A stretch of 64,000 bases of DNA, from NCBI GenBank assembly GCA_030068145.1, contig JAPJBO010000945.1:1-64000 (forward strand), given 5' to 3'. The DNA is from Diplonema papillatum (lineage: Eukaryota; Euglenozoa; Diplonemea; Diplonemida; Diplonemidae). The notes beneath the pieces are model-generated. The model had not been told where the DNA came from. It made no database searches and saw only the letters and a list, made by a program, of their open reading frames with translations. Made by a program: the position numbers and the translations under genes. Shown piece after piece: positions 4,013-64,000 of the stretch (the first letter of the stretch is position 1; every line of letters starts with the position of its first letter).

Positions 4013-4072
4013 AAAAACGCTTGATGCAGGGTAGATGGCCAGATAACAGAACCAGCATGTGGCGCATTTGAA

Positions 4073-5820: not shown

Positions 5821-5867
5821 GCTCGATACCAAACGCGCCAGCATGACAATATATAAATATAGCGAGG

Positions 5868-6460: not shown

Positions 6461-6462
6461 TA

Positions 6463-6958
6463 CTTCTTTCTCTCTTTTTGCTGCAGCTCTTCCTCCTGCT
6501 TCTGCTCCTCTATCTGCTGCCCCTCTAGCTGTTCTATCCTCTAGCTGCTGCTCATCTTGCTTCTTTCCTCTTGCTGCTGCTCCTCGAGCTGCTGCTCATC
6601 TTGTTCCTGCTCATCTTCCTTCTTCCCCTCTTGCTGTAGCTTTTCCTCTGCTTCTGCTCCTCCATCTGCTGCTCCTCTAGCTGCTCCTTTCTTGCCTCTA
6701 GCTGCTGCTCATCTTGCTTCTTTCCTCTTGCTGCTGCTCCTCGAGCTGCTGCTCATCTTGCTCCGGCTCGTCTTCCTTCTCCCCCTCTTGCTGTAGCTCT
6801 TCCTCCTGCTTCTGCTCCTCTACCTGCTGCCCTTCTAGCAGTTCTATCATCTAGCTGCTGCTCCTCTTGCTTCTTCCTCTTGCTGCTCCTCCTCTATCTG
6901 CTGCCCCTCTAGCTGTTTTATCTTCTAGCTGCTGCTCCTCCTGTCTGCTGCTCATCAC
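6463..6958. repeat. CTGCTGCTC-type pyrimidine minisatellite
   Basis: About 500 bp of the plus strand is made of CTGCTGCTC, CTCTAGCTG, CATCTTGCTTC and TTCCTCTTG blocks, with longer duplicated segments (for example around 6548-6615 and 6700-6760). Read on the minus strand it would encode Glu/Gln-rich helix in places, but stops interrupt every frame. I treat it as a simple repeat. Confidence 0.7.
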
Positions 6959-6974
6959 GCTACGGCTCGATAGC

Positions 6975-8478
6975 AAGACCTCAAATTCCCAAAGAGTCGC
7001 GTCTGAATGATAAAGAGCGGCCCAAGAACGACTGCAAATTGGCCGATAATCAAACAGCGGCGCAAGAACGACTGCAACTGTGGGCGGCAATGACAGATGA
7101 CAGATGAACGGAGCTAGACCACAAATGTCCAAAGAGCCATGCCCGACTGACAGCAAACGGCCAAAGTGCGGTACGAGAACGACTGCAAATGTCCATAACA
7201 CCTGTCTTTTTTTCCTTCAAGGACAGCAGATGACCGCAGAACGGTACCAGAATGACAGCCAATGTCCAAGGAGCGGCACCAGAACGACTGCAGATTGCCA
7301 GAGACTGCCCCAAGAATGACAGCCAATGACCAATGAACAGCGTTAGAATGACACAAATGCCCATGAGCCACGCCTGAATGACAGTGAACGGGCAAAGAGC
7401 GGCGCTAGAACGACTGCAATGGCCAAACTACAGAACGAGAACGACTGCAACTGGCCGGAGATCGCCCAGGAAGGACAGCCAATGACCAGCAAGCGGCACC
7501 AGAATGACAGCGAACGGCCATAGAGCGGTACCAGAACGACTGTGCCAGAATGCCAGCGAATGCGCCAGAACGACTGCAGATTGCCAGAGATCGCCCAGCC
7601 AATGACCAGCAAGCGGCACTAGAATGACTGCCTATGACCAACAAACGGCGCTAAAATGACCACAAATGCCCATGAGCCACACCTGAATGACGGACCAAGA
7701 GCGGCGCTAAAACGACTGCAATGGCCAAACTGCGGAACGAGAACGACTGCAACTGGCCGGAGATCGCCCAGGAAGGACAGCCAATGACCAACGAGCGGTA
7801 CCAGAATGACAGTGAACGGCCATAGAGCGGTACCAGAACGACTGTGCCAGAATGCCAGCAAATGGCCAAGGAGCGGCGCCAGAACGACTCTCAATGACCA
7901 AAGAATGCCGCTAGAACGACTACAAATGCCCATAGAGCCTGAATGACGGCGGTCGGCCAAATGCAAATGTCCAAAGAACGGCGCTTGAACGACTGCAAAT
8001 TGCCCAAGAGCAGCGCCAGCATGACTGAAAATGGCCAAACTGCGGCGCGAGAACGACTGCAACAGGCTGGAGACCGCCCAGGAATGACAGCCAATGACCA
8101 AAGAGCGGCACCAGAATGACAGTGAACAGCCACAGAGTGGTACGAGAACGACTGCAAATGTCTAAATCACCTTGCTTGAGGGACGGCAAATGACCAGCAA
8201 GCGGCACCAGAATGACTGCCGACGACCAAAGAACGGAGCTAGAATGACCACAAATGCCCAAAGAGCCGCGCCTGAATGACAGCGAACCGCCAAAGCGGTA
8301 CTAGAGCGACTGCAAATGTCCAAAGCACCTTTGTTTGAAGGACGGCAAATGACTGCAGAACGGTGCCAGATTGACAGCCAATGGCCAAGGATTGGCACCA
8401 GAACGACTGCCAATCGCCAGAGATCGTCCCAAGAATGACAGCCAATGAATGACCAGCAAGCGGCACCAGAAGTAACGA
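6975..8478. repeat. 32-bp degenerate satellite, block C
   Basis: This is the most regular block; consecutive units starting AGAATGACAG... near 8080-8140 are exactly 32 bp apart. Local higher-order duplications exist: the text around 7428-7560 recurs around 7735-7860. There are no genes in it. Confidence 0.75.
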
Positions 8479-29293: not shown

Positions 29294-31778
<2,485 letters not shown>

Positions 31779-41695: not shown

Positions 41696-43315
41696 TCACC
41701 CGTATCCAACACAACAGGGGAAACTAGAGAAATCGCGGACCAGCAAAATTTCGTGGACCCTGAGCTCGTACGGGTTGTTGCCGTAGGCGCGATCTCTCCA
41801 CAAGACGATCTCGAGCCACTTGCTGTTGCCATGGTACTGCACAACGGCGCAGGCGAGTAGCCGTCGAACCGGCCTTCCGCGATGATCTGAGTCTTCGTCG
41901 GTGGCAGCGTACACGTGCATGGAACCATTCTGCCACTCTTGGGCGAGCTTTTCGTTGTCTATCAAGTCTATGACTGCGCCCTTCGCCGCGAACTCCGACT
42001 TGTCGACGACGACACCTGACAGGCGCTTCGCTTCCTTGCGCAGCCTCGCCAGCTGCTGAGCCGACGGGGCGACTTTTCTCGGCTTGGACCTTCCTTGCTT
42101 GTCTTTTGCCGAACGAACGGGCGTCTCCGTCGGGTGATCTTTCGTTGCTATAGCGGAGTGGGTGGTCTGCAGCCACGCTTCGACGGATGCACGCTTCGCA
42201 AGGATCTCGGCTTCGGTCAGGAGTCGTTCGTCAAGCTCGCAAGGTTCGGCATCGACGTTCGGCTGCGGTTCGATATCAACGGCCATCTTCGTCGTCGGCT
42301 GCGACGGGTCATTCGAGGCGGTACTCGGCTCCTTCGGCAAAGCATTGGCATGAGCGGCATCCGGCTCTGCTCCACGAGTTGTTTCGACGCCACTGGGATC
42401 TTTCACGACCTTCTGCGCGATCCCCGAAGCGCACGTGATGTCCGCTTGAGACTCAGCCGGCGGGTTCGTCGTGGCAGCCGTGGGTACTGTTCCACGGCCT
42501 TGTTGGCTTTGCTTCTTTTCTCCAGCCGCGGCGTTTTCGCAGGTTGGGGACAGAATATCAGACGCTTCCGAGTCGGGTTTGAGTAATCCCGCGGGCTGCG
42601 TTGCTGAGGGAGCCCGCGACTCAGCTTTGTGAGCGTTTGTCCGCTCGGTTCGTTCGTCCAGATCAATTTCAAGCTTTTTTGGAGCCTCAGGCGCATCGCC
42701 GGGAGTGAATACTCCGGGCTGCGTTGAGGCGACTGCTGGTTGGGACTTGCGGGCACTTGCGAGCTCGGTTGGTTCAGCGGTGTTGGCCATGTCTTCGGCG
42801 TCTTGCGAAACCCCGGCCGCATCACCGCCGACAGATTGCTCAAGCGGGTTCGAGGCATGTTCGGCCTGCGACCGAAACGCGGCGCTGGGGGCAGCGGCAC
42901 TTTCGGTCGGTACGTCGTTGCTGGCCTTCGCAGCAGGTTGCACGCTTTCGCCCGCGTCGCTTACTGGATTGACTGATTCAATGGGCGCCGGCCGCACTGA
43001 TTCGACGATGGGCTCTGGCACGTCTTCTGCTTCTTCTTGGTCATTGTCAGTACAAAGATGCTCAGAGGGCTTGCCACCAACAACCGCAGGGCTTTGCCGC
43101 GCACATGTTGCCGGCCGGTCAGAAACCGCGCGATCGGAGCGCGGGAATTGCTCGGGCTCGGGCGGCGCGATGAGGTTTGCCGGAGGCATGCCTCCTTCGG
43201 TGGCCATTGGCTGAACGGGCTTCCCGTCAGCAACAGCAACGGGAGGCACGTATGCCTCGCGGCGCATTGCGTGCAGTGACTTCCGAGGCTTAATTGGAGC
43301 GGTTGTCACCGGCAT
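41696..43315 (-). CDS. Ala/Glu/Pro-rich protein; may be the 5' part of the GNAT gene
   Basis: The ATG at 43313-43315 opens MPVTTAPIKPRKSLHAMRRE; the frame runs about 539 codons. Roughly 370 residues are low-complexity (Ala, Glu, Pro, Ser, Thr), without strict repeats. The C-terminal 150 residues look folded: a basic helix (QQLARLRKEAKRLSGVVVDK), then FAAKGAVIDLIDNEKLAQEW and LLACAVVQYHGNSKWLEIVLW. The stop at 41696 follows a stretch that may be intron. A phase-0 junction to the acceptor before 41191 would be possible, but the nearest donor (CTG then GTCCGC) is weak. No known family. Confidence 0.5.
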   Translation of the reverse strand: MPVTTAPIKPRKSLHAMRREAYVPPVAVADGKPVQPMATEGGMPPANLIAPPEPEQFPRSDRAVSDRPATCARQSPAVVGGKPSEHLCTDNDQEEAEDVPEPIVESVRPAPIESVNPVSDAGESVQPAAKASNDVPTESAAAPSAAFRSQAEHASNPLEQSVGGDAAGVSQDAEDMANTAEPTELASARKSQPAVASTQPGVFTPGDAPEAPKKLEIDLDERTERTNAHKAESRAPSATQPAGLLKPDSEASDILSPTCENAAAGEKKQSQQGRGTVPTAATTNPPAESQADITCASGIAQKVVKDPSGVETTRGAEPDAAHANALPKEPSTASNDPSQPTTKMAVDIEPQPNVDAEPCELDERLLTEAEILAKRASVEAWLQTTHSAIATKDHPTETPVRSAKDKQGRSKPRKVAPSAQQLARLRKEAKRLSGVVVDKSEFAAKGAVIDLIDNEKLAQEWQNGSMHVYAATDEDSDHRGRPVRRLLACAVVQYHGNSKWLEIVLWRDRAYGNNPYELRVHEILLVRDFSSFPCCVGYG

Positions 43316-43443
43316 GGTCTGGTTCTTTCTTCGCTCTTTTTCACGCGATATTGCAACTAAATGGCGTTGTGCATTCAAAGAAGGACTCGCGAGCGAAGTC
43401 AGTCGATCTCGTGCACAGAAATAGCGATTTATTCTCGAGAAAC

Positions 43444-43519
43444 AGGTAGTTTTCTGCACGAGTAGTTTTCCAGTGTCACGGGTGGCACAATGGAAAACTA
43501 CGAGGTGCAGAAACTACCT
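43444..43519. other. Imperfect long inverted repeat (29-base arms) upstream of 43315
   Basis: 43444-43472 and 43491-43519 are near-perfect reverse complements (inner GTAGTTTTCCA / TGGAAAACTAC exact), with an 18-base loop that itself has GTGTCAC/GTGGCAC symmetry. It sits about 130-200 bp upstream of the start codon of the 41696-43315 gene, in its promoter or 5' untranslated region. It could be a regulatory hairpin or a small foldback element. Confidence 0.75.
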
Positions 43520-44555: not shown

Positions 44556-46971
44556 CTAAAACGCAAAGTGGCCACGAGAGCCCGACGTTACTCGGGACCG
44601 GCTGCGATTGTCCCGCAAGGTCTGCGGCAACGGATTGCGCAACGGTAGAACGACCCGGCCAGATAGGTTCTCGAACTCCGCCAGGCAGGCTTTGATGGCC
44701 TTCGTGGTCGGGTGTGCAAATCCTAAATACGACGTCGCCAACGTCAGGGCTCGCACGCAGGTGGCGGGCGCCTTCAGCGACTGCGGATTGGAGGGTTGTT
44801 TAGTTTCGGAGAAGTGCACGCGCCACGAGTTGGTATATAGGCGAGCAATGATGACGCTCGGATTTCCCGCTGTACTATCTCGGGAGCCTGGTGCGCTTCG
44901 CGAATATCTAAGATATGAGGACAACTTCAAAAAGTGTGCGACAAACCTCTGACTGTGTCACTGACTGCGCAACGGCAAGATTGTGCAAGGCGACGATCAT
45001 CAACAGCTTCGTGTTGTTCACATCCGAGTGCGCCTGAGTGTGTGCGAGGGATGGTTTTCGAAACGATTCGCTCCACTGGATCAGTACTGTGAGTCAATGA
45101 GCCGCAAAGGAAAAGATTTTGGCGGTATGGCCAAATACATGGTGGTAAATGTTGTGTCTATTCTGACCACACTGTGGGAAAGCTGTGGGTGCACAGTGCT
45201 GACTGGACGCGTGCCAGGTCACATCTGGTGCACCTGAAACCACCGACAATGCAGACACGAGGGGAGGCGCCACGTTGCTCGGACGTGGTTGGGTTCTGTG
45301 CATGGTTGGGTTCTGTGCGTCTTACTGTAACACAGTTGATCGACATGTTGAGATCATACCTTTCCGTTCCTTATGCGCCGCTTCAGCAGGCGCATCGACC
45401 TCTGACAGCAGCGAAGCGCGGCGGGTCCGTCTTGCAGCGCTGCGTAGACGGCGCTCAAGTTCAGTAATGTTGCGGGGCTCTCGCTCTGTACCGAGCACTC
45501 CAACTTATGCACCGCCTCCTGTTGTGGGTAGTCACGTTTGCACTGTTGAAAGCAAGAGAGGACATCATGTACAAGTCGTAGCTGGCAAACGACTAACTAT
45601 AGTGCGTTGCTCAGGGTAGTCGAAGGCCTGACAATGCAACAAACTTACGACTAACTGCCAACAGGGACGTTTCGGCTTCACTTTTACACCTTCCTATTAA
45701 CACGCGGCGGCATCCTTTCAGATTACACATCCAGCACGGGTACGGCGCCTCAACGGCACATCATAGTGAGGGCCAGGTGCTCATGCTGCTCATTTTCTGC
45801 TCCTCTTTCGAAGCCATCACGCAAAATACTCACCATCTGGACGAAACAGAAAGAGAAAGCTGCCTACAATCTTCGCTTTTTCTCACGAAAGGGGGCTGCT
45901 CTAAAGCGGTCCTGCAGTTGTAGTCAACTCTTCTCTGCGAGGAATAGCATGAATTTACTTTCAAGAAAACGCGGTGACACGTACCAGATACTCCAGCGCT
46001 TTCTCGTGGGCGTTCATGCGCTTGTACAAGCAGCCGACGTTGTTGAGAGTCGTGAAGCGGAGGCGTACGCGCACGTCGTTGCTGGCGAAGTCGATGTCGT
46101 CGGACGGCGACGCCGCCGCGCGGGTCGCGAGGTTCGCTTTGCGCAGGTGCTCCGCCGCCTCCGCGAACTTGTTCTGCAGCGCGAGCTGCGACGCGGTTTT
46201 GTTCCAGTCGAGGACCATCTGCTTGGAGGCCTCCTCCTTCGGCAGGCTGCGCCTCCGCTGCTCGCCCTCCACCAGCAGCAACGACACGTCCTTCTCGGGC
46301 TCGATGCCTCCTATACCCAATGGCGACAACCTCCTCTGTGCCCCGACACTCGCACGGTCCAACGGCCGTTGTCTAGGCCGCGACGCCGGCACGAAGGACT
46401 CACCACCTTCGGCGTCCTCGTCATCAGACGCGCCCTGCACGGGCGTGTCGGTGTTCTGCCAGCTTTCTGACCCCAGGAACAGCTGCACGAAGTCGTTCAC
46501 GCCGGCATCTTTGAAGCCGAGGGGCGGCTCGGCGTTGTCGCCGTTGCCGTAGAGACTCACGCGGCCGTGCGGGTTCCCTGGCGTCTTCTTGTCTTCGATG
46601 GCCAGCGGCTTGCCCGGCCGCATCGGGTCGGTGCCTTGCACCTCGGGCGTCAGTGTGCGCTGCCTCCCGTCGCCGGTCGGCGGCGGCTCCTTCGGGCCGC
46701 CCAAGACGGCGCTCACCGGGCGGGGCCCGCCGAGAGGCCGCAGCAGCGTTTGCCGGGTGAACGGGTCCGCGCGCTGCCGCCGCACCACTTCTTCCTTGTG
46801 TTCAAGCTCCTCGTCCTGATGCGCCCTCCAGCCGGATTTCAGCTTGTTGCTTTGCTCTCGTATCTGTGTGGTATCAGGGGTTTGAACTTGACGTGCAGCA
46901 ACAATCTGTGACGATAGACTGCACAGTAGTGGTATCAGGGGTGTATCGAGCTCGTAGCGAGAGGATAACAT
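44556..46971 (-). CDS. Tetratricopeptide-repeat protein
   Basis: Exons 46863-45985 (possibly extending to an ATG at 46971), 45518-45360, 45033-44947 and 44780-44556, all phase 0 with GT-AG borders. About 450 residues are covered without the 5' extension. The N-terminal 200 residues are polar and disordered (RQTLLRPLGGPRPVSAVLGG; a segment with VNDFVQLFLGSESW). TPR units follow: KTASQLALQNKFAEAAEHLR, LNNVGCLYKRMNAHEKALEYL across an exon join into EAVHKLE, LLNLSAVYAALQDGPAALRC, KLLMIVALHNLAVAQ, and LATSYLGFAHPTTKAIKACL, which resembles kinesin-light-chain-like TPR ends. TPRs act as protein-binding scaffolds. If the 5' exon is separate it would lie beyond the LINE insertion at 47085. Confidence 0.75.
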
Positions 46972-47032
46972 GTGACCTAAAAGTCGAATTTGTTGTGATT
47001 TGCAGAATCACGTCCCACCCGCACACACTACG

Positions 47033-47084
47033 CTTCGGAGGGGCTCACGCACTCAAAGATCGACGTATACGCACACACTACGCA
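47033..47084. repeat. 52-bp direct repeat, left copy (target duplication)
   Basis: Identical over all 52 bases to 48909-48960. The two copies exactly bracket the LINE-like fragment. Confidence 0.85.
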
Positions 47085-48908
47085 AGTCGACCTGAGGACA
47101 CTGGACGACCTCAAGGAGCTGGGGCACCTGGCGCGCGAAGCCCTGAGGCTCTGGCGGTGGCGGAACATCGACAGGAAGAACCTGGAAGGGATTGGTGAGG
47201 GCGTGGACCGCAACGCAACGTTGCGACTGCTGGAAGTAGGGCGCGGGAAAGGGGAGGCTAGGGAAGAGCGCGGAGCGACTGCCGTCAACCTTAGCGCGTA
47301 TGAACGAGGTGTGCTCAGGCACATCATGGCGGATGCAGTGCTGCCGCAGACGCGGTTGCACCAACGGAAGATGCAACCGAGCGCAACGTGCAAGTACTGC
47401 GGAAAGGAAGACGAGGACCACCTACACATGTGGTGGCGATGTGGAGAGTGGGACGCCATACGAACGACGTATGCGGTAACCGCGCTAGAATGGCAGGAAT
47501 GGCCGAAGTGTATGTCCGTTTGCGGGATCAAACCGAAGAGAGAGAGAGGAGGTGAAGGAGCAGGGGCATGGGTCTGCAGGGGCTTGACGCGCCAACTTGT
47601 CAACAGTGTGCAGGGCATGATGGTCCAGATCACCCTGGAGAGGCCGTGGAGGGACAAGAAGCCGTGCAGCGGGAAAACGACGGACGTGGGCTTGCATATC
47701 CTTGGGAGTGGGCGCCGCAGGAGACGGAAGTGATCCAGAATTCACTGGCGGACTACATGCCCAGAAACTGGGGCGCTATACTTAGCGCTGGCGCATTGGC
47801 TGGCGAGTCTGCGTTGGGCCAAGAGCGAGGAAGAGATGGCGGTGACGTTCATAGAACTCGCCGTTGACTTTGAAGTCGAATCCGGAATGGACCTGCCGCG
47901 ACGCGGACAGAAGGCGGTTGGGCCGGAAGACGCAGAGGACGGAGAGGAGGACGCAGGCCAGAAAGGGGAAGCGCATGGAGGAGCTGCGCTCGCGGGAAAA
48001 ATGAGGACGCTGTTGGGGATGCTCAAGACGCTCCAAGGAACCCACGATGGGGAGCTTTTGCCGGCAAGAAAGAAATCAATAGGTTGGCTTCGGCGGCTCG
48101 GCGCGTCAGGACGGTGGACGGAGGGTCTGGAGAGGCGCTGTATCCTGGGCAGAGATACCCTGCAAGCGCTGCGAGGGCTCGAGGTGTCGGCAGGAGAGTA
48201 CACGAAGGCAGAACACGGAAAGGTACAAGCAGAGCGCAGGGAAGACGGGGAGAGACTAGGAAAATTCGATTTCAAAAAGTGGTACCCATCGGACGAGGAA
48301 AGGGGGCGACGGGCCCAGAAGTGGTTCACCTTAGCGGAACAGGAGAATCAGGCGGGACGAGGAGGGAGGAGCTCGAAGAGGAACACCGCCCAGGGCAAGG
48401 AAGTGTCACGAGGTGCGCCGGAGGCAGAGGGCGCGAACCAGGATACGAAGGCGGAACAGCGCGCACGAGGACGACCGGCTCTGAAGAGGCCCGCGCCGCA
48501 AGCGGCGCGGGCAGCACGGAGTGCCAAGCAACGTAAGAAGGAAGACGAGGAGATCCAGACAGCACAGCAGGACGCCCGAGCTGAGGCGGCCGACGGACCA
48601 CAGAGGCGAAAGGCAGAACAGGAAAGGCAGGCGCGGTCGGTACGAGAAGCGGCAATCGCGGATAAGGCAACGAGTACAGAGCAGCCGTCGCGCAGAAAAG
48701 CAGTAAAGCGACCCGCGTCGCAGGTGGCACAAAACGTAGGAGCCCGTGCGGCAGGGAGTGGAGACGAGGTGATGCAAGACGAAGGGGAAGCGCGAAGCCC
48801 CCAGCCCGGACGGATCAACAAGACGCAGGACCAGGCGACCAAAAGAAGGAGGGGGACGCGACCCAGAGACCCGGGCTAAGTAGCTTGGAACTAGTGTGAT
48901 GGACCTTT
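47085..48908 (+). mobile_element. LINE-type retrotransposon 3' fragment (5'-truncated)
   Basis: A 1,824-bp insert between the 52-bp repeats. From 47086 one frame encodes the region after a reverse transcriptase: helical DLKELGHLAREALRLWRWRN, then a zinc-binding C-x2-C-x8-H-x4-C (CKYCGKEDEDHLHMWWRC) typical of the C-terminus of many LINE proteins, to a stop near 47733. The protein continues in another frame from about 47740 (LASLRWAKSEEEMAVTFIELAVDFE) as a Lys/Glu/Arg/Ala-rich tail to a stop at 48879. So at least one frameshift separates the two parts. No reverse transcriptase core and no poly(A) tail remain. The C-terminal pattern resembles elements frequent in dinoflagellates, by memory only. 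Confidence 0.65.
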
Positions 48909-48960
48909 CTTCGGAGGGGCTCACGCACTCAAAGATCGACGTATACGCACACACTACGCA
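48909..48960. repeat. 52-bp direct repeat, right copy (target duplication)
   Basis: See 47033-47084. After it (48961-49292) comes short unassigned sequence down to the stop of the giant gene. Confidence 0.85.
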
Positions 48961-49292
48961 GACTTTCAGCAGCGTTGAAGCAGTGTGTTGCAGAAAGGAC
49001 GAAAATGCACTCCGCACGAGCAGGAGTCACGGGCTTGCCGTTCCAGCAGTCCCATGAAGAAAAGGTGCAAGGTTGGTGAACCGCGGCACACCTCTTGACA
49101 CAGACCGGTCTTCCCTCTCCTGCACCCTAGTACTCGGCACAGGAGGGAAGAACACCAACATACCAAGCACTTTTTGAGGTTAGCAGGCTTCTTTATGGAT
49201 CTATGGATCTATCCTGGATCTGGTGCCCAGGGATTCGAATACCTTTGGAACCCCGGGAAAAACTACCAGGAACGCGGCATGCGGAAACCCTT

Positions 49293-52200
49293 TTACCATT
49301 TAGACTCTTCGTTGAGCTGGTTCACGCGGTTAGATGCATTGGATTGGGGAGCTCTCTGGGTTTGGGCCGTGAAAACCCGCTGCGTGTGCGCCCCCTGCCC
49401 TCCAGCTTGAAGAATCTTACGAGCCGTGTCAACGTTCTTTTGATTCTATTCTTTTTGTGGGACGCTTTGCGTGCGTCTTGCCCGGCATTAGATTCGGAAG
49501 CAGAAAAAGAGAGAGAGGGCGAAAGAAAAACAACTTAAGAGTGCAGAAAGCAGAAAGGGTATACCTCCTTGGCTCGGGCCTCCTTCTTCGCCATGTGCGC
49601 GGCCCAGCGAGCTTCCTTGGCCTGCTTCTCCTCCCGCCGGCACTCTTCGAGCACTTTGCGGCGTTCTTCCGCCTTTGCAACGTCGCTGCCGTTGAGCGAC
49701 TCGGCGACGCGCTGCTGCCAAGAAGCCCTCGAGTGCAGCCGATCCCGCCGGTTGAGCAGCAGCTGCTGCCCGCTCTGCAGCCTCTCCGCCAGCGCCATGC
49801 GCGCCCGGCGCTCGGCCTTGTGCGACTCGCGCCGCTGCCGGTCCTCCTCCGCCGCCACGTACGCCGCCTGGTCGAAGAACAGGTCAGCCACCGCGTCTCC
49901 CAGCCTTCCCGCCATCTCGCGCTTGTACACGCTCCGCCGAAGCCTGCCTTCCTCGCTGAGCAACCCGTCACGGATCGTGCCTTCGGCGTCGTGCAGCTTC
50001 CGCCGCTCCGCGGCCCTCGCCCGCATGCCGTCGCCCTCCATATCGAACGCGCGCGTGAGCTCCCGCCGGGTCGTCACTTCGCCAAACTCGGTCGCGACGC
50101 GGCCGTCGTCCTCGCGCCGGGCCACCAGCTCGCGGGCTTCGGCGGCCCCGTCGACCGGCTCCGCGCGCTTTTTCCCCGCCGGCGAAGGCGGCTGCACGTT
50201 CGCGGGGCGCGCGTGCCGGTGCACGACCGACGCCGCCGGGAGCCCGCCCTGCGCGCTCAAAAACTGTTTCAGCCGCCCCCGCCGCACGCCGCCGGCCGCG
50301 TTGCGGGGCAGGGTCCCCGGCGCGACAAACAGGAACTGGCACCCGGGCTGCCGCCGCGCAGCGGAGGCGCACCGGCGGTCGAGCAAGCTGCGCTGCCTTT
50401 CGGTTGTCGCGAGGGTCCTGGCGCCGGGTAGCCGCACGTCGTCCAGCTCGTGCACGACGAACGCGCGGCGGGGGTCCGCCTTCGTCCCCTTCCCGGTCAC
50501 GACGGCGGTCACATCGCGGGTTGTCACGCCGTCGCCCCACACGTCGGCGACGGACACAGCCGCCTCCGCCTCCAGCTCCGCTTCCTCCGGCTCCGGCGGC
50601 GCTTCGGCGCGGGAAGCTTGCGCGGGCTTCGCGCCGTCGGCCGCGCGCGGGACGCTTCTTTCGTACAAAACGGCCCCGGCCGGCAGCGCCTTCAACACCT
50701 GCCGCACCTCGTCGCGGGAGACCCCGCCAGCGCCGCCCCGCCGCAGCGTCCCCGGGCGAACGAAAATGAAGTCGCACTTCGACGCGGCCGGCGACGCCGC
50801 GAGCACCTTCTTCGAAGCCGCGGCGCAGCGGGCATGCAGCGCTTCCGCCTGGCGGGCGGCGGGGGGTCTGCCGCGCGTGCCGGTGGTTGGGTTCGGGGCG
50901 GGCGCAAGCTCCTGCACGATGGTCACGTCGCCTGACTCGGCGGTGACAGCGACGGAGTCACCGGTTTGCAGGCCGTCGAAGACGTCGCCCGCGTGGACTC
51001 GGCCGAGGGCGTCGAGGCTCGGATCCCCGGCTGGCCCCGGGCAGGTGAGCGTGACGGCGTCGCGCGGGAAAAGACCTTTCCGGACCATCTTCCGGAGGTG
51101 CTCCTGGTTGACGCGGCCGCCGCCCCGCCTCGGCAGCGTATCGGGCGGCACGAAGACGAACCTGCAGCCCGCCGCGCCCGGCGGCGCCGCCGCCAGGATG
51201 CCGGCCGAGGCGGCCGCGCAGCGGTCCTGCAGCACCTTCAGCATCCCCGCCTCCGGCGGCCGAGAACCAACCCCCGCTGCGCGCTTTTTCGCAAGCTCGT
51301 GCACGATCGTCACTTCTCCGGGGGGCGTCCCTTCCTCTCGGTCGGGGACCACTGCCACAACTTCGCTGGTATCCATACCCTCGAAAATGTCGTCCGTTTT
51401 CACATGTCCCAATTCCTTCAGTTGAGCTTCCGATTCTCTGCTTGCGTTGTCGGCGTCGACCCGGGCTCCCGCCGCCGGTTCGGGCCCGTCTGAGTGCGGC
51501 GCTCCCTTCGGGAAGCGCAGAGTACGCAGGACCGCCGGGCTCGACTGTGCACGCTCGATGGCGTCGGCCACTTTGTCCCGGCGGATGCTGCCCTTCTTGT
51601 CGCGGGGCAGTGTGCCCGGCCGCGCGAAGACGAACTTGCAACCGGCGGACCACGGCTTCCTCGAGAGAATCGCTCTCGCAGCGGCGGCGCATTCCGATTC
51701 CAGTTTGCGCACCCTGTTCTCGTCGAGTGGAATGCCGGTGGATGCGGGCGATCCCGATAGTTCCTGCACAACCAAGACTTCGTCACCGTCGCTGCCCTTA
51801 GTAGCGATGGCCACGACCTTACCAGGACCCATACCCGTGAAGACGTCGTTTACACCGACTCGTCCCTCCACCTCTACTTCTCGCCAGTCAGCAGCTGTTC
51901 CGTGATTTTCGGTGGAAACATTTGGAATCCGAATAGCACCCACGACAGCGGTCTTCGGTGCATTCTGGACCGCTTCGGCCACTTTGTAACGGCGAACTCG
52001 GCCACTCTCGTCACGGGGCAGTGTGCCCGGTCGAGCGAAGACAAACTTACAACCGGCGGACCAAGGCTTCCTCGAGAGAATCCCTTTTGCAGCGGCTGCG
52101 CATTCCGATTCCAGTTCTCGCATCCTATTCTCGTCGACTGGAATGCCGGTGGATGCGGGGGCTCCCGAGAGCTCCTGTACAATCAAGACTTCGTCACCAT

Positions 52201-55200
52201 CGCTGCCCTTGCCGGCGACGGCTACAATTTCACCAGGACCCATTCCCGTGAAGACGTCGTTTACACCGACTCGACCCTCGACTTCTACTTCTTGCCAGCC
52301 AGCGGCGGCTCCGTGTTTCTCGGGGGAAACTTTCGGGATTCGAATTGCGCGCACTACGGCGGCTTTCGGCGCCTTCTCGACAGCTTCGGCCACTTTATCA
52401 CGGCGGATGCTGCCCTTCTCGTCACGGGGCAGTGTGCCCGGACGAGCGAAGACGAACTTGCAACCTGCGGACCAAGGTTTCTTTGAGAGAATCCCTTCCG
52501 AAGCGGCTGCACACTTCGATTCTAGTTCCCGCACCATATTCTCGTTAACTGGAACGCCGGTGGATCCGGGGGATCCCGAGAGTTCCTGCACAATCAACAC
52601 TTCGTTCCCGTCGCCACCCTCTCCGGCGACGGCTACAACTTCCCCGGAACCCATTCCCGCGAAGACGTCGTTCACACCGACTCGTCCCTCGATTTCTACT
52701 TCTCGCCAGTCAGCAGCGCTTCCGTGCTGCTCAGTGAAATCCTTCGGAACTCTAATTGCACGCACGAAGGCCGTTTTTGGCGCCTTCTGGACAGCTTCGG
52801 CCACTTTATCACGGCGGATGCTGCCCTTCTCGTCACGGGGCAGTGTGCCCGGCCGAGCGAAGACGAACTTGCAACCGGCGGACCAAGGTTTCCTCGACAG
52901 AATCCCTTTGGCAGCAGCTGCGCACTTCGACTCCAGTTCTCGCACCCTACTCTCATCGAGTGGAACGCCGGTGGATCCGGGGGATCCCGAGAGTTCCTGC
53001 ACAATCAAGACTTCACCATCGCTGCCCTCCCCGGCTACGGCTACTATTTCACCAGAACCCATTCCCGCGAAGACGTCGTTTACAGCGACTCGTCCCTCGA
53101 TTTCTACTTCTCGCCAGTCAGCAGGGGGTCCGTGCTTCTCAGTGGAATCCTTCGGAACTCTAATTGAACGGACGAAAGCAGTTTTCGGCGCCTTCTGGAC
53201 CGCTTCGGATACTTTATCACGGCGGATGCTGCCCTTCTCGTCACGGGGCAGTGTGCCCGGTCGAGCGAAGACGAACTTGCAACCGGCTGACCATGGCTTC
53301 CTCGAGAGAATCCCTTTGGCAGCGGCTGCGCACTTCGATTCCAGTTCTCGCACCCTACTCTCGTCGAGTGGAACGCCAGTGGATCCGGGGGATCCCGAGA
53401 GTTCGTGCGCAATCAACACTTCGTCACTATCGGTGCCCTCCCCGGCTACGGCTACAATTTCACCAGGACCCATTCCCGCGAAGACGTCGTTTACACCGAC
53501 TCGTCCCTCGACTTCTACTTCTCGCCAGTCAGCAGCGCTTCCGTGCTTCTCAGTGGATTCCTTCGGAACTCTAATTGCACGCACGAAGGCGGTTTTCGGC
53601 GCCTTCTGGACCGCTTCGGCTACTTTATCACGGCGGATGCTGCCATTCTCGTCACGGGGCAGTGTGCCCGGCCGAGCGAAGACGAACTTGCAACCGGCGG
53701 ACCATGCCTTCTTTGATAGAATCCCTTTTGCAGCGGCTGCGCACTTCGACTCCAGTTCCCGAACCCTACTCTCGTCAACTGGAACGCCGGTGGATCCGGG
53801 GGCTCCCGAGAGTTCTTGAACAATCAAGACTTCGTCACCATCGCTGCCCTCCCCGGCGACGGCTACAATTTCACCAGGACCCATTCCCGCGAAGACGTCG
53901 TTTACACCGACTCGTCCCTCGACTTCTACTTCTTGCCAGTCAGCAGCGCTTCCGTGCTTCTCAGTCGAATCCTTCGGAACTCTAATTGCACGCACGAAAG
54001 CAGTTTTCGGCGCCTTCTGGACCGCTTCGGCCACTTTATCACGGCGGATGCTGCCCTTCTCGTCACGGGGCAGTGTGCCCGGCCGAGCGAAGACGAACTT
54101 GCAACCGGCGTACCTTGGCTTCCTCGAGAGAATCCCTTTGGCAGCGGCTGCGCATTCCGATTCCAGTTCGCGCATCGTGTTTCCGTCGAGTGGAACGCCG
54201 GTGGATTCGGGGGATCCCGAGAGTTCTTGTACAATCAAGACTTCGTCACCATCGCTGCCCTCCCCGGCGACAGCTACAATGTCACCAGGACCCATTCCCG
54301 CGAAGACGTCGTTTACACCGACTCGTCCCTTGACTTCTACTTCTTGCCAGTCAGCAGCGGTTCCGTGCTTCTCAGTGGATTCCTTCGGAACTCTAATTGC
54401 ACGGACGAAAGCAGTTTTCGGCGCCTTCTGGACCGCTTCGGCCACTTTATCACGGCGGATGCTGCCCTTCTCGTCACGGGGCAGTGTGCCCGGTCGAGCA
54501 AAGACGAACTTGCAACCGGCAGACCATGGCTTCTTTGATAGAATCCCTTTTGCAGCGGCTGCGCACTTCGACTCCACTTCCCGAACCCTACTCTCGTCAA
54601 CTGGAACGCCGGTGGATCCGGGGGCTCCCGAGAGTTCTTGAACAATCAAGACTTCGTCACCATCGCTGCCCTCCCCGGCGACGGCTACAATTTCACCAGG
54701 ACCCATTCCCGCGAAGACGTCGTTTACACCGACTCGACCCTCGACTTCTACTTCTTGCCAGTCAGCAGCGGTTCCGTGCTTCTCAGTGGAATCCTTCGGA
54801 ACTCTAATTGAACGGACGAAAGCAGTTTTCGGCGCCTTCTGGACCGCTTCGGATACTTTATCACGGCGGATGCTGCCCTTCTCGTCACGGGGCAGTGTGC
54901 CCGGTCGAGCGAAGACGAACTTGCAACCGGCGGACCATGGCTTCCTCGACAGAATCCCCTTGGCAGCAGCTGCGCACTTCGACTCCAGTTCTCGCACCCT
55001 ACTCTCGTCGAGTGGAACGCCGGTGGATCCGGGGGATCCCGAGAGTTCCTGCACAATCAAGACTTCACCATCGCTGCCCTCCCCGGCTACGGCTACTATT
55101 TCACCAGAACCCATTCCCGCGAAGACGTCGTTTACAGCGACTCGTCCCTCGATTTCTACTTCTCGCCAGTCAGCAGAGGGTCCGTGCTTCTCAGTGGAAT

Positions 55201-58200
55201 CCTTCGGAACTCTAATTGAACGGACGAAAGCAGTTTTCGGCGCCTTCTGGACCGCTTCGGCCACTTTATCACGGCGGATGCTGCCCTTCTCGTCACGGGG
55301 CAGTGTGCCCGGTCGAGCGAAGACGAACTTGCAACCGGCGGACCATGGCTTCCTCGAGAGAATCCCTTTGGCAGCAGCTGCGCACTTCGATTCCAGTTCT
55401 CGCACCCTACTCTCGTCGAGTGGAACGCCAGTGGATCCGGGGGCTCCCGATAGTTCCTGCACAATCAAAACTTCTTCCCCGTCGTTGCCCTCCCCGGCTA
55501 CGGCTACAATTTCACCGGGACCCATTCCCGCAAAGACGTCTTTTACACCGACTCGTCCCTTGACTTCTACTTCTTGCCAGTCAGCAGCACTTCCGTGCTT
55601 CTCAGTGGATTCCTTCGGAACTCTAATTGCACGCACGAAAGCAGTTTTCGGCGCCTTCTGGACCGCTTCGGCCACTTTATCACGGCGGATGCTGCCCTTC
55701 TCGTCACGGGGCAGTGTGCCCGGCCGAGCGAAGACGAACTTGCAACCGGCGTACCATGGCTTCCTCGAGAGAATCCCTTTGGCAGCGGCTGCGCATTCCG
55801 ATTCCAGTTCGCGCATCGTGTTTCCGTCGAGTGGAACGCCGGTGGATTCGGGGGATCCCGAGAGTTCTTGTACAATCAAGACTTCGTCACCATCGCTGCC
55901 CTCCCCGGCGACAGCTACAATGTCACCAGGACCCATTCCCGCGAAGACGTCGTTTACACCGACTCGTCCCTTGACTTCTACTTCTTGCCAGTCAGCAGCG
56001 GTTCCGTGCTTCTCAGTGGATTCCTTCGGAACTCTAATTGCACGGACGAAAGCAGTTTTCGGCGCCTTCTGGACCGCTTCGGCCACTTTATCACGGCGGA
56101 TGCTGCCCTTCTCGTCACGGGGCAGTGTGCCCGGTCGAGCAAAGACGAACTTGCAACCGGCAGACCATGGCTTCTTTGATAGAATCCCGCTTGCAGCGGC
56201 TGCGCATTCCGATTCCAGTTCCCGAACCCTACTCTCGTCAACTGGAACGCCGGTGGATCCGGGGGCTCCCGAGAGTTCTTGTACAATCAAGACTTCGTCA
56301 CCATCGCTGCCCTCCCCGGCGACGGCTACAATTTCACCAGTACCCATTCCGGCGAAGACGTCGTTAACACCGACTCGTCCCTCGACTTCTACTTCTTGCC
56401 AGTCAGCGGCAGCTCCGTGTTTCTCGGCGGAAACCTTCGGGATCCGAATAGCGCGTACGACAGCGGTCTTCGGCGCCTTTCGGACAGCTTCGGCCACTTT
56501 GTCACGGCGGATGCTGCCCTTCTCGTCGCGGGGCAGGGTGCCTGGCCGCGCGAAGACGAACTTGCAACCACCGGATCGAGACTTGCGCGAGAGAATCTTC
56601 TGCGAAGCCGCCGCACATTGCGACTCCAGCTCGCGCATTGCCTTGTCGTCGACCGGTGCGCCGGTGGTGCCAGAGGTACCACCGGGCTCCGTCAGCTCCT
56701 GTACGATCAAGATTTCGTCGTCAACGTCGCTTGCCTCCGCGGCAACCGCAACGACTTCGCCAGGACCCATTCCCGCGAAAACACGGTCGACTCCGACGCT
56801 TGCATCCACTTCTACAGTGCCCCATTCCATCGCCTCTGCGATGCTCTGCCGGCTGCTGGCACGGGTTTGCGCTGCATCGGCGGCATCGCCGTGTGCGTGC
56901 CGAGTTTGGAAGACGGCGTCTTCAGGCGGAAAGGACTTGTTGCGCAGGACGTCTGCCAATTTCAAGTTGTCAACGCGGCCCGCAGCGTCCCGCGGGAGGG
57001 ACCAAGGAGCAGCGAAGATGAACCTGCAGGCGGAGGCGACGCCGGGGGAGTTCGACAGAACGTGCCGCGCGGTCGAGCCGCAGCGAGACTGCACAATCTG
57101 CTTCTTCGAAGCGCTCAGCGACTGGGAAGTTGGCACATCGCCGTCGTTGCCCGAGCTCACGACTTCCTGCACGACGACGACCTCTGCCCCCCCGTCGTTG
57201 TTCGGAACAACGACGGCAGCCGCATCACCTGCTGCGCATCCGTCGAAAACGTCATCGACGACCCCGCGGCACACGCCTTTCATTGCATCCGCCACCTGTT
57301 GTGCCGGGGCTATCCCGACTTCGTCGGCGTCCTCTCCGATTCTCCCGCGGACAGCCTCCGGCGGCTTTCCCGCGGCTGCGTCCGCTTCGCGGACGGGGTA
57401 CCGCAGGTCGCACAGCACGTCGGCGGAGGCCAGCCGGCCGTTGGTGAAGTCGTCTTCGAGCTTCCTCCTCAGCAGCCCGCCCGCCCTGCTCCGCGGGAAC
57501 GTGCCGGGGCGGGCGAAGACGAAGCGGCAGCTCGACTTTCGGCCGTTCTCCGCCGAAAGGACCTCGTGGTACGCGCGGAGGCACCGCGAGCCCAAAGCCC
57601 GCCGCTGGTCCTCCGACATCGCCGCCTCCCGATCGCCGGCGAGCTCGTGCATGAGCACCACCTCACTTCCGTTGTCCCCGGCGAAGGCGACGACGTGGGC
57701 CGACTGAATCTCACGGGTGTCGACCTTTCCCTTCCGCTCCCAAGAGCGCGCGTCGGCGTCCATTTTGGCGGCGTCGTACTCGCGCAGGACCCGGGCACCT
57801 CCCTTCGTGGCCAGCTGCCCTTCCTTTACGAAAGCGAGCCGCTCAGTCACCGTCGCGTGCTGGTGCTCTGTCGCGGCGAATATCTTCCTCGCGACTCCGT
57901 CGAGAAAAAACGAGTCTTCCCGTGTGACTTCTTGCGTGATGGCGGCGCCGAGTGCGCTTGGGGTGATGACGACGCGGGTGTCGCGCAGAGAAGCATCGAT
58001 GGACCTGCAGGTGGCTCCTATCGCTGTCGGCAGCCGAGTGTCGGTGGGCCAGCGGGCGACGATTTCGTCCGAGTTCAGCGAGAGCGCTGTTTTCGCGGTC
58101 GATCGGTCGAAATTTTGGTCGGGTCTCGCGGACAACAGGGCGTACTGGTCCAGCTCAAGCCCCATGGCACGCAACGCCTTCTGGACCTGGGCGCCGTGCT

Positions 58201-61200
58201 CGGCCGCTGACTCCGGATCTCCATGTCCGGGGCCGGCCTTCTCGACAACAGTCATCTTCCCTTGCGCCAACGAAGGGAAGACAGCGAAGCCGTGGGAGTT
58301 TTTGAGGGGTCCTGCCGCCGCCAGCTTCTCTTCCACCTCCGTCGCCGGCACGCGGCGTCCTGCTCCCGTCGTCACGAAGTCGAGTGCGGCGGAGGCGGGT
58401 TGGCTCTGGCCCGGCTTCGCGGGCGTTGCGGCGGGCGTGTTTTGGCTCTTCGGCTTCGGCTTCGAGTCGAAGAGAACGTGGCTGGCAGTGTCGTCGTCGG
58501 CATTCTCCGGGTTCACCCGCATGCCGCGCGCGAACCGTTTGCCTCCTTTTCGCCGAGGTACGCTGCCCGGCTCGACGAACAAAACGCGGTCGACGCCGTC
58601 CATCATTTCCTCGCACCGTCTCGCCGCAGCTTGCAGCGCCCCCGCGTCTGCTTCCGGACCCTCGCTCAGTTCCACGAGGAGGGTTCTGAGCCCCGGCCCT
58701 TCGTCGATCACCTCCGCAAAAGCGACGCCGGCAATCGATCGCAGGCCGTCGGTTTCGATTTCCTTGACGAGCTGCGTCGTGTCGGCTTCTGATGCTGCTC
58801 CCGCACTCGAAACCGGATCCAACGGGTCCACTTCCCTGATCACTGCGTCGTTGTCTCGCACAGCCGCTTCGAGGACTTCCTTCTTCATCTCGGCGTATTC
58901 GAGGGTTCCACGTTCGACACCTCGTGCCTTTGCGAGGGCATCAACCCTTCGAACCAACCGATCTGAGTCTATGAGCACGACGCTGTCTGGGAGGATGCCG
59001 AGGTCGTTGTACAATTCCTTGCAGGCCGATTCGAAGTCGGCGCTGTCGCCCCGCGCGGTTTCGACGCCGATCCGGAATCCCGCGCCGTCGGGCCCGGGGT
59101 CCCCAATGGAGCAGCACGGCTTGCTCGTCGCCCTGCTCCAGCATTCTTCGATGTTCCGGCGGGTCGCGCTTTTCTTCTGCTTCTTCTTCATTTCTTCTCG
59201 GTCTTGCCCCGCGGAGCTACTGCCTCCTGCAGCCTTTGTCGTACTACCGGCAACAGTGTCCTGCTGGAAACCGCCTCGAGCAGTGCTTCCCGCGGCAGTT
59301 CCTGCAACGTTCGCTTCGCCGGCACTGGCTCCGGAATCCGCTCGCTCTGCCCCTGCAGCGTTGGAAGGCTTTGCGCCGCCTGGAGTGCCTGCAACAGAGC
59401 CCCTCACGTCACCATTTGCAGTTTCTGCACCACCGGCTCCCTGTGCACCCCCTTGTCTACCTGCTCCATTGGCATCCTGAGCTTTAGCAATGCCAGCGTT
59501 GGCTCTCGGTGCACTTACTGGAGCACCCGCTTCATTCACTCCCGGTGTTCCAGCTGGATCACGTGCTACCTCCGCACCGCCACCAGTTCCTGCAGTGCCG
59601 GATACAGTCGGTTTTCCTGCACCAGCTTGCGCACCAGTTCCATTGCCAGGTGTATCGCCAGTCTCGACACTCTGCACAGCCGGACCTGCTGCACCGCCAG
59701 CTACGACTCCCTGCGCAGCCGCTACAGGACCTGGTGCACCACTGACATTTGAGCCTTGTACACCATCACCAGCAGTAGTACCCGAACTTGAACGCTGTAC
59801 TCCAGCAGCAGCACTCGGCGCATCACCAACACTTGAACCCTGTATACTAGCAGCAGTACCTGGAACACCACCAGCACTGGAATCCTGTACATGACCTGGT
59901 GCACCACCAGCACTTGAACCCTGTACACCATCACCAGCAGTAGTACTTGGTGCACCGCCAGCACTTGAACCCTGTACACCATCACCAGGAGTAGTACTTG
60001 GTGCACCGCCAGCACTTGAACCCTGTACACCATCACCAGGAGTAGTACTTGGTGCACCACCAGCACTTGAACCCTGTAAACCAGCAGCAGTACCTGCTGA
60101 ACCGCCACCGTTGACACCTTGCGCACCGCCTTGTGTACCACCTGCATTTGCGCCTTGTACCGGAGCACCTGCAGTTGGAGTGTCATCCTGGTTACCACTT
60201 GCTGTACCCGTTGCATGACGAGGGACACTAGCACGTTGCACAGCACCTGATGAACCAGTTGCGGTGACATCCTGGTCACCACCTGCAGTGCCCGATGCAC
60301 GCCGAGGGACACTAGTACCTTGCACGGAACCTGGAGCACCTGTTGCAGTAACTTCATGGTCGCCACCTGCAGTGCCCGATGCATGACGAGGGACACTTGC
60401 ACGTTGTCCAGCACCTGGAGCTGATGAACCAATTGCGGTGACATCCTGGTCACCACCTGCAGTGTCTGATGTATGCCGAGGGACACTAGCACGCTGCACA
60501 GCACCTGGAGCACCTGTTGCAGCTTCCTGGTCGCTACCTGCAGTACCCGATGCATGACGAGGGACACTAGTACCTTGCACGGTACCTGGAGCACCTAATG
60601 AACCAGAGGCGGTGACATCCTGGTCACCATCTACAGTGCCCGATGTACGCCGAGGGACACTAACATGCTGCACAGCACATGGAGCACCTGTTGCAGTAAC
60701 TTCATGGTCGCGACCTGCAGTGCCCGATGCATGACGAGGGACACTTGCACGTTGCCCAGCACCTGGAGCACCTGATGAACCAGTTGCGGCGACACCCTGG
60801 CCACCACCTGCAGTGCCCGATGTACGCCGAGGGACACTAGCGCGCTGCACAGCACCTGGAGCACCTGTTGCAGTAGCTTCCTGGTCGCTACCTGCAGTGC
60901 CCGATGCATGACGAGGGACACTAGCGCGTTGCACAGCACCTGGAGCACCTGATGAACCAGCTGCGGTGACGTCCTGGTCACTACCTGCAGTGCCCGATGC
61001 ACGCCGAGGGACACTAGTACCTTGCACGGTACCTGGAGCACCTGATGAACCAGAGGCGGTGACATCCTGGTCACCACCTACAGTGCCCGATGTACGCCGA
61101 GGGACACTAACATGCTGCACAGCACCTGGAGCACCTGTTGCAGTATCTTCATGGTCGCGATCTGCAGTGCCCGATGCATGACGAGGGACACTTGCACGTT

Positions 61201-64000
61201 GCTCAGCATCTGGAGCACCTGATGAACCAGCTACGGTTATATCCTGGTCACCACCTGCACTGCCCGATGCGCGCCGAGGGACGCTAACAGCACCACCTGC
61301 AGTTGGGGTGTCTTCCTGGTCACCAGCAGTACCCGACGTACGCCGAGGGACACTAGCACGCTGCACAGCACCTGGAGTACCTGTTGGAGTAACTTCCTGG
61401 TCGCCACCCGCAGTGCCCAATGCATGACGAGGGACACTTGCACGTTGCCCGGCACCTGAAGCACCTGATGAACCAGTTGGGGTATCATCCTGGTCACCAC
61501 CTGCAGTGCCCGATGCATTCCGAAGGACACTAGCACGTTGCACAGCACCTGAAGCACTTGATGAACCTGCTGCAGTAACTTCTTGGTCACTACCTGCAGT
61601 GCCCGATGCATGACGAGGGACACTAGCGCGTTGCACAGTACCTGGAGCACCTGATGAACCAGCTGCGGTGACGTCCTGGTCACCACCTACAGTGCCCGAT
61701 GTACGCCGAGGGACACTAACATGCTGCACAGCACCTGGAGCACCTGTTGCAGTATCTTCATGGTCGCGATCTGCAGTGCCCGATGCATGACGAGGGACAC
61801 TTGCACGTTGCCCAGCATCTGGAGCACCTGATGAACCAGCTGCGGTGACATCCTGGCCACCACCTGCAGTGCCCGATGCACGCCGAGGGACACTAGTACC
61901 TTGCACGGCACCTGGAGCACCTGATGAACCACTTGCGGTGACATCCTGGTCACCACCTGCAGTCTCTGATGTTCGCCGAGGGACACTAGCACGCTGCACA
62001 GCACGTGGAGCACCTGTTGCAGTAGCTTCCTGGTCGCTACCTGCAGTGCCCGATGCATGACGAGGGACACTTGCACGTTGCCCAGCACCTGGAGCACCTG
62101 CAGTTGGAGTGTCATCCTGGTCACCACCTGCAGTACCCGATGCATGCCGAGGGACACTAGCGCGTTGCACAGCACCTGGAGCACCTGATGAACCAGCTAC
62201 GGTTATATCCTGGTCACCACCTGCACTGCCCGATGCGCGCCGAGGGACGCTAACAGCACCACCTGCAGTTGGGGTGTCTTCCTGGTCACCAGCAGTACCC
62301 GACGTACGCCGAGGGACACTAGCACGCTGCACAGCACCTGGAGTACCTGTTGGAGTAACTTCCTGGTCGCCACCTGCAGTGCCCAATGCATGACGAGGGT
62401 CACTTGCACGTTGCCCGGCACCTGAAGCACCTGATGAACCAGTTGGGGTATCATCCTGGTCACCACCTGCAGTGCCCGATGCATTCCGAAGGACACTAGC
62501 ACGTTGCACAGCACCTGAAGCACTTGATGAACCTGCTGCAGTAACTTCTTGGTCACTACCTGCAGTGCCCGATGCATGACGAGGGACACTAGCGCGTTGC
62601 ACAGTACCTGGAGCACCTGATGAACCAGCTGCGGTGACGTCCTGGTCACCACCTACAGTGCCCGATGTACGCCGAGGGACACTAACATGCTGCACAGCAC
62701 CTGGAGCACCTGTTGCAGTATCTTCATGGTCGCGATCTGCAGTGCCCGATGCATGACGAGGGACACTTGCACGTTGCCCAGCATCTGGAGCACCTGATGA
62801 ACCAGCTGCGGTGACATCCTGGCCACCACCTGCAGTGCCCGATGCACGCCGAGGGACACTAGTACCTTGCACGGCACCTGGAGCACCTGATGAACCACTT
62901 GCGGTGACATCCTGGTCACCACCTGCAGTCTCTGATGTTCGCCGAGGGACACTAGCACGCTGCACAGCACGTGGAGCACCTGTTGCAGTAGCTTCCTGGT
63001 CGCTACCTGCAGTGCCCGATGCATGACGAGGGACACTTGCACGTTGCCCAGCACCTGGAGCACCTGCAGTTGGAGTGTCATCCTGGTCACCACCTGCAGT
63101 ACCCGATGCATGCCGAGGGACACTAGCGCGTTGCACAGCACCTGGAGCACCTGATGAACCAGTTGCGGTGACATCCTGGTCACCACCTGCAGTGCCCGAT
63201 GCACGCCGAGGGACACTAGTACCTTGCACGGAACCTGGAGCACCTGTTGCAGTAACTTCATGGTCGCCACCTGCAGTGCCCGATGCATGACGAGGGACAC
63301 TTGCACGTTGTCCAGCACCTGGAGCTGATGAACCAATTGCGGTGACATCCTGGTCACCACCTGCAGTGTCTGATGTATGCCGAGGGACACTAGCACGCTG
63401 CACAGCACCTGGAGCACCTGTTGCAGCTTCCTGGTCGCTACCTGCAGTACCCGATGCATGACGAGGGACACTAGTACCTTGCACGGTACCTGGAGCACCT
63501 AATGAACCAGAGGCGGTGACATCCTGGTCACCATCTACAGTGCCCGATGTACGCCGAGGGACACTAACATGCTGCACAGCACATGGAGCACCTGTTGCAG
63601 TAACTTCATGGTCGCGACCTGCAGTGCCCGATGCATGACGAGGGACACTTGCACGTTGCCCAGCACCTGGAGCACCTGATGAACCAGTTGCGGCGACACC
63701 CTGGCCACCACCTGCAGTGCCCGATGTACGCCGAGGGACACTAGCGCGCTGCACAGCACCTGGAGCACCTGTTGCAGTAGCTTCCTGGTCGCTACCTGCA
63801 GTGCCCGATGCATGACGAGGGACACTAGCGCGTTGCACAGCACCTGGAGCACCTGATGAACCAGCTGCGGTGACGTCCTGGTCACTACCTGCAGTGCCCG
63901 ATGCACGCCGAGGGACACTAGTACCTTGCACGGTACCTGGAGCACCTGATGAACCAGAGGCGGTGACATCCTGGTCACCACCTACAGTGCCCGATGTACG
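49293..64000 (-). CDS. Giant modular protein with tandem acyl-AMP-ligase C-terminal-like modules (5' end beyond window)
   Basis: One exon of at least 14.4 kb (64000-49565) is joined, phase 0 (donor GTATAC, acceptor CGTAAG), to a last exon 49415-49293 ending ESKW and stop: at least 4,852 residues, open to the window edge. Counting from the edge: residues 1-1260, about 42 repeats of 28-31 residues; about 1270-1370, QGSSAGGAPSTTPGDGV repeats; 1370-1600, a Gly/Ala-rich linker ending in a basic patch (KKKQKKSATRR); 1750-4583, at least 20 modules of about 137 residues; about 4617-4812, charged coiled coil. Each module reads VFAGMGPGEIVAVAGEG, DEVLIVQEL, a Cys-containing helix, then CKFVFARPGTLPRDEKGSIR, which resembles the C-terminal subdomain of fatty-acyl-AMP ligases and DIP2. 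No adenylation core was seen. Probably a non-enzymatic scaffold; localisation unknown. Confidence 0.8.
51550..56650 (-). repeat. 411-bp coding tandem array, 13 near-identical modules
   Basis: Thirteen consecutive modules, each 137 codons; at least two are 136 codons (408 bp) through loss of one Asp codon in GEGSDGEVL. The motif LPRDEKGSIRR is kept in ten; variants are DENGSIRR, DESGRVRR and DKKGSIRR. Four divergent modules lie N-terminal (near 58560, 57800, 57480 and 56990) and three C-terminal (near 51120, 50730 and 50290). Confidence 0.9.
59875..60100 (-). repeat. 51-bp coding repeat (17 residues)
   Basis: About four close copies encoding QGSSAGGAPSTTPGDGV with looser copies on both sides, between the longer repeat array and the linker. 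Confidence 0.85.
60215..64000 (-). repeat. 84/93-bp coding tandem array with higher-order duplications
   Basis: About 42 copies of a 28- or 31-residue unit built around QRASVPRHASGTAGSDQ. Large blocks are duplicated almost exactly: 60594-61077 recurs 2,904 bp away at 63498-63981, and 61237-62184 recurs 966 bp away. The array continues past the window end. Confidence 0.9.

Follow-up and report, generated by a model that had tools for sequence, protein, structure and literature searches.

The stretch of Diplonema papillatum DNA analysed here (the window; 64,000 nucleotides, positions 1 to 64,000 of contig JAPJBO010000945.1, abbreviated below to C945) ends in what we read, with a probability of roughly 0.6, as a protein-coding gene for a giant, non-catalytic scaffold protein. 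The protein contains about 27 modules whose sequence profiles and predicted fold support a match to the lid, or C-terminal domain, of fatty acyl-AMP ligases (FAALs). On the minus strand, the reading frame stays open from a stop at 49535-49537 for the 4,821 codons that the window contains and continues along the contig to base 72382, so that C945:49535-72382, which includes sequence beyond the window, holds 7,615 codons without a stop or an N. By comparison, the other two minus frames have 107 and 206 stops within 49535-64000 and the three plus frames have 85, 27 and 110. An earlier, sequence-only reading had placed a giant frame at 49293-64000 and a polypeptide of more than 4,800 residues in it. 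This length is reached within the window alone and the frame is real, but it ends at 49535 and extends well past the window. Translation probably starts at the ATG of codon 84, and a pyrimidine-rich stretch ahead of this ATG could take a spliced leader. The euglenozoan leader core has 661 matches in the genome at up to one mismatch, against none for the reversed control (genome-wide scans covered 271,365,524 bases in 2,910 contigs). In the numbering of the open frame, a TPR block within residues ~785-970 is followed by weak IQ-like motifs (~995-1011), modules of the divergent type (1050-2150), a repeat part rich in Ser, Thr, Gly and Ala (~2190-4375), further modules (4490-7390) and an Arg/Glu-rich tail.

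The array modules are spaced every 137 codons, and Tandem Repeats Finder reports a 411-bp tandem unit at 51564-56597 in 12.3 copies with 89% matches. The profile derived from 19 window modules picks up the same 19 at E < 1e-15; since this is the profile's own training set, the result shows number and places and is no independent support. The profile also finds seven weaker stretches upstream, three of them at E values of 1e-6, 0.0004 and 0.019 and the rest at 0.19-0.97. Seven divergent modules were placed upstream of the window in all, three by profile and four by eye, and the total of about 27 includes eight that are very divergent (these seven and a doubtful one in the window). The initial count of at least 20 tandem modules in the window was right to within that doubtful copy (19 by profile, plus 57983-58420). 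A common end motif had also been claimed, and the motif does recur, but its exact form, FVFARPGTLPRDEKGSIRR, is present in only 10 of the 20 in-window modules, with variants in the other ten.

Several lines of comparison point to the FAAL lid as the closest known counterpart of the module. When 12 window modules and five upstream modules are combined into a 17-module profile, it matches FAAL C-terminal domains of solved structure (7r7e/f/g, residues 473-563) at E 1.6e-6; of the 13 distinct sequences reached at E <= 10, 11 bear the names of adenylate-forming enzymes. Six upstream modules alone reach FAAL chains at E 2.5e-6, while the window and upstream profiles match each other with a probability of 95.7 (E 1e-8 for that one comparison). 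The NCBIfam search of the modules gave the same enzyme domain. Over frame residues 1-2150, the Pfam family PF23024 (AMP-dom_DIP2-like) exceeds its cut-off (29.9 vs 27 bits, best stretch 2063-2144). Three upstream modules taken one at a time fall short of it (15.9 bits, 11.9 bits and no match), as do the window part taken whole and each of 15 window modules. For one window module modelled with AlphaFold (pLDDT 76, pTM 0.73), the first Foldseek match is an FAAL C-terminal domain (E 8.9e-4, probability 1.00). The fold and motif of this domain are thus present in the modules by profile and by Foldseek. A profile search and the modelling of a single module were among the checks named in the sequence-only reading, which had assigned the modules to the C-terminal subdomain of the ANL superfamily, and both came out as it predicted. 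Of its label 'FAAL/DIP2-like', the FAAL match holds and PF23024 is passed upstream, but the resemblance extends to FAALs as a group and is not specific to DIP2.

Some results weaken this identification. The profile of 15 window modules alone gives a weak match (E 0.12), and the FAAL sequence link therefore depends on the upstream modules; scanned singly against Pfam, the window modules gave one chance match among 15 and none that is convincing. Together with the middling structural scores, these results could be taken to mean that the likeness is convergent and that the module has another small alpha/beta fold. We regard this as very improbable given that profile, NCBIfam, Pfam and structural comparisons all agree on one enzyme domain.

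A caution comes from elsewhere in the genome, where 12 copies of a ~400-bp motif are reported upstream of the SufC gene and are described as missing from the mature mRNA (PMC10161547). As described there, that array shows that unexpressed tandem copies of gene parts arise in this genome, and its numbers resemble ours; the array studied here might likewise be a genomic repeat that only looks coding and is spliced out or unexpressed. When 13 of 162 candidate SufC-profile matches were scored, the only one over the cut-off lay on another contig (C37) and none lay on C945, and a pattern search of all six frames of C945:1-84000 (the contig has 86,749 bases) found no ABC Walker or signature motif. 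We therefore take the array of the giant gene to be another locus. Its copies are, moreover, in frame, stop-free and flanked by divergent modules on both sides, and they are under selection at the protein level. A codon-by-codon comparison of the 12 alike modules gives a mean dN of 0.071 and dS of 0.297 (ratio 0.24, 66 pairs), with 44, 21 and 83 variable columns at codon positions 1, 2 and 3, and this computation shows that the 12 modules are under purifying selection. A non-coding repeat is, in our estimate, very improbable.

The locus is present a second time in the assembly. Contig C1672 repeats it with 99.9% identity over 17.4 kb, including ~8 kb of 5′ flank, and carries the same open frame, which is truncated where the contig ends. 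There are 14 strong modules on C1672 and 19 on C945, and the low-complexity part is 968 residues shorter on C1672; in C945 a stretch of 425 residues in this part recurs exactly, 968 residues away, a duplication that could be a recent event or an assembly artefact. The strain is suggested to be haploid, and separate short- and long-read assemblies were merged (PMC10161547), from which we infer that C1672 probably represents the C945 locus in collapsed, redundant form. Modules five apart on C945 differ by 2.5% to ~19% of bases, which means that the five additional modules on this contig are more than copies made by assembly. The module layout is common to both contigs and the exact copy number differs between them.

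In FAALs the C-terminal domain occurs once per enzyme, after a large adenylation core of ~450 residues, and its catalytic lysine normally contributes to adenylation. The giant frame departs from this arrangement in two ways. Pfam scans of the whole frame (residues 1-2150, 2151-2794 and 2795-7615) contain no match to the adenylation core PF00501 at E <= 10, and a module spacing of 137 residues leaves no room for one, which bears out the original claim that no core lies between the copies. The core is also where the FAAL-specific insertion would sit, and the frame accordingly offers no place for it. In the catalytic-lysine column, whose register was set by the motif and is uncertain in the most divergent modules, Lys is found in one of 27 modules and Arg in four, the others having Ser, Thr, Gly, Asn or Asp. 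With the column changed in 26 of 27 modules and no core found, catalysis of the FAAL type is, to judge from the sequence, very unlikely. It is conceivable that the modules instead act in trans as lids or inhibitors of separate ligase cores, or that they still bind AMP or acyl-AMP, and many do keep the fold and the motif residues P-G-T-L-P-R, G and RR. That the column has Lys in only one of 27 modules argues against such roles. Elsewhere in the genome there are 17 matches to AMP-binding frames (six loci were fetched), and all five that were classified are acyl-CoA-ligase-like, all under the curated cut-offs. None of seven FadD32-like matches exceeds the family cut-off, which is little informative in that the same holds for 14 of 14 control genomes, and the absence of PF23024 matches genome-wide says as little, coming from a search that misses the giant protein as well. 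We judge a role in trans to be highly improbable. As a separate observation, a 3,475-codon frame at contig C284 (~35.2-35.6 kb; locus L049) contains FadD32-like sequence (E 2.2e-7); a carrier-like stretch and the first part of a ketosynthase can be made out by eye, and the whole looks like a nonribosomal peptide synthetase (NRPS)-polyketide synthase gene in a diplonemid.

The rest of the protein is of a different character. The TPR block, ahead of the modules, reaches 79.7 bits with TPR_12 (cut-off 30.1) over three stretches and matches kinesin light chain 1 at E 5.3e-12, and with TPR_12 over its cut-off the protein classifies as a TPR protein of the kinesin-light-chain type. As a calmodulin-binding IQ motif, the IQ-like sequence near residues 995-1011 scores 11.0 bits, under the cut-off of 20.3, and residues 84-571, scanned separately, match no Pfam family. 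The Ser/Thr-rich part contains 24 R-[RK]-x-[ST] sites where 2.1 are expected (maximum 7 in 500 shuffles) and 82 R-x-[ST] sites where 31 are expected (maximum 45 in 500 shuffles); both excesses follow from the repetition of one 'sentence' of residues and are only a hint of control by basophilic kinases. A model of two modules (pLDDT 54, pTM 0.38) leaves their packing undefined, which agrees with flexible linkers, although it may simply reflect a poor model.

Based upon these features, we propose that the modules lost their enzymatic function and were then duplicated, and that they would now act as folded beads on flexible linkers of ~20 residues. The TPR ends, together with the Ser/Thr-rich part, would serve to anchor or regulate the protein, possibly via calmodulin at the weak IQ-like motifs and via basophilic kinases, and the surface of the beads would serve to bind a repeated partner or to set a length. 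If this is correct, an enzyme's mobile subdomain has become a structural unit repeated in tandem, and copies that resemble FAALs more (upstream, E 2.5e-6) and less (window-only, 0.12) still coexist in one chain. The most interesting rival follows from a review which states that the FAAL C-terminal domain interacts with acyl carrier protein for docking (PMC11837247): the repeats could form a multivalent docking array that binds carrier proteins or acyl-AMP ligases and gathers them on one string. The genome does contain genes for AMP-binding enzymes and a long frame with adenylation-like, carrier-like and ketosynthase-like stretches (the last two by eye). Pfam scans of the giant frame contain no carrier or ligase domain, however, and the motif region that would face the active site is altered; we consider such an array unlikely. 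Wider still, and in our view doubtful, is the proposal that a ligase lid was freed, lost catalysis and gave rise to a new class of giant scaffolds in diplonemids, which would dock carriers, ligases or some other partner multivalently under regulation by TPRs and phosphorylation.

Among known systems, the modules resemble the C-terminal domains of FAALs (the FAAL domain of Synechococcus olefin synthase, 7r7e/f/g, FadD32 and FadD23) in profile match, predicted fold and end motif, whereas the giant protein has ~27 lids, no core that we could find and a lysine column changed in 26 of 27. Giant scaffolds with many copies of one folded domain per chain are familiar from titin and the plakins, whose building blocks are unrelated to this one. 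The TPR block is shared with proteins such as kinesin light chain and nephrocystin-3, which to our knowledge are much smaller and lack FAAL-derived modules. Among the matches of the module search is a pseudo A-sub subdomain of an NRPS (6ulw, by its PDB title), in which a pseudo adenylation C-subdomain stands beside other domains; there it is part of an NRPS module. DIP2 likewise represents a eukaryotic duplication of FAAL-derived parts, and PF23024 bears its name. It occurs in opisthokonts and has two full FAAL-like domains, in which mutation of adenylation residues is reported to abolish function (PMC9342972). In contrast, the giant protein consists of lids only and belongs to a euglenozoan, and the hallmarks of DIP2 (two cored FAAL-like domains, often with a DMAP1-binding domain) are absent from it, our Pfam scans having found neither a core nor a DMAP1-binding family. 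The building block is already known, but we are not aware of its use in a core-free array. A search of open literature for such a layout found no protein of this kind, which does not show that there is none in print. We found no relative in a large protein collection or elsewhere in the genome, nor did any related genome turn up with this layout. Diplonema papillatum is said to be amenable to genetic manipulation (PMC8611851) and gene replacement has been reported in it (PMC10161547), so the gene can be tagged or removed in this free-living marine flagellate.

Table 1. Features of the giant gene in the window, in the order of the coding strand.
Feature	Position	Strand	Basis or remark
In-window part of giant open frame	49535..64000	-	Continues to C945:72382; 7,615 codons; probable ATG at codon 84
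Ser/Thr/Gly/Ala-rich low-complexity repeat part	59258..64000	-	Begins outside window; many R-x-S/T sites, 425-residue duplication
Divergent FAAL C-terminal-like module, carrying the sole Lys of the catalytic-lysine column	58487..58915	-	Profile
Doubtful, strongly degenerate module	57983..58420	-	By eye only
Divergent module	57407..57811	-	Profile
Divergent module	56897..57349	-	Profile
First array module, less alike	56447..56899	-	Profile
Twelve mutually similar modules of 137, sometimes 136, residues	51518..56467	-	Repeat finder, profile, codon comparison
Divergent module	51047..51541	-	Profile
Divergent module	50657..51091	-	Profile
Last module	50213..50665	-	Profile
Arg/Glu/Ala-rich tail, perhaps coiled-coil	49565..50212	-	Coiled coil by eye
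Possible GT donor GAG|GTATAC at end of tail	49564	-	By eye
Predicted next exon, TPR-like end	45985..46863	-	Phase 0, CAG|ATA ... CTG|GTACGT; splice sites by eye
Predicted further TPR-like exon	45360..45518	-	Splice sites by eye

Downstream of the giant frame, two predicted TPR-like exons can be read in phase (Table 1). Both score below the Pfam cut-offs, the first with TPR_1 (21.7 bits against 27.8) and the second with TPR_12 (18.8 against 30.1). The predicted intron between the frame and these exons harbours a retroelement-like stretch (47030-48970, by eye) that contains a zinc-finger-like reading, CKYCGKEDEDHLHMWWRC, and is bounded on either side by short, nearly identical sequences. Further along the window, again on the minus strand, a 587-codon frame at 41696-43459 has no Pfam match, and a 492-codon frame at 39635-41113 matches the GNAT acetyltransferase family (PF00583, 29 bits, cut-off 20.7) before a long repetitive tail. 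A nearly pure TG dinucleotide repeat of 191 copies lies at 29295-29675.

Many scattered pieces of 28S rRNA are reported for Diplonema papillatum (PMC10161547), and we found pieces of 18S rRNA to be scattered over the genome as well (L014-L021), with 228 matches to one primer-like core. Eight such pieces, when compared, share stretches of 56-522 bp, apart from one pair that shares 1.6 kb, and two of the three tested scored in Rfam. Among 70 tubulin matches, 57 span the whole profile in one stop-free frame, many of them clustered (C65, C197, C258, C485, C103, C114 and others), and in the one stretch checked for order an alpha tubulin gene precedes the beta gene.
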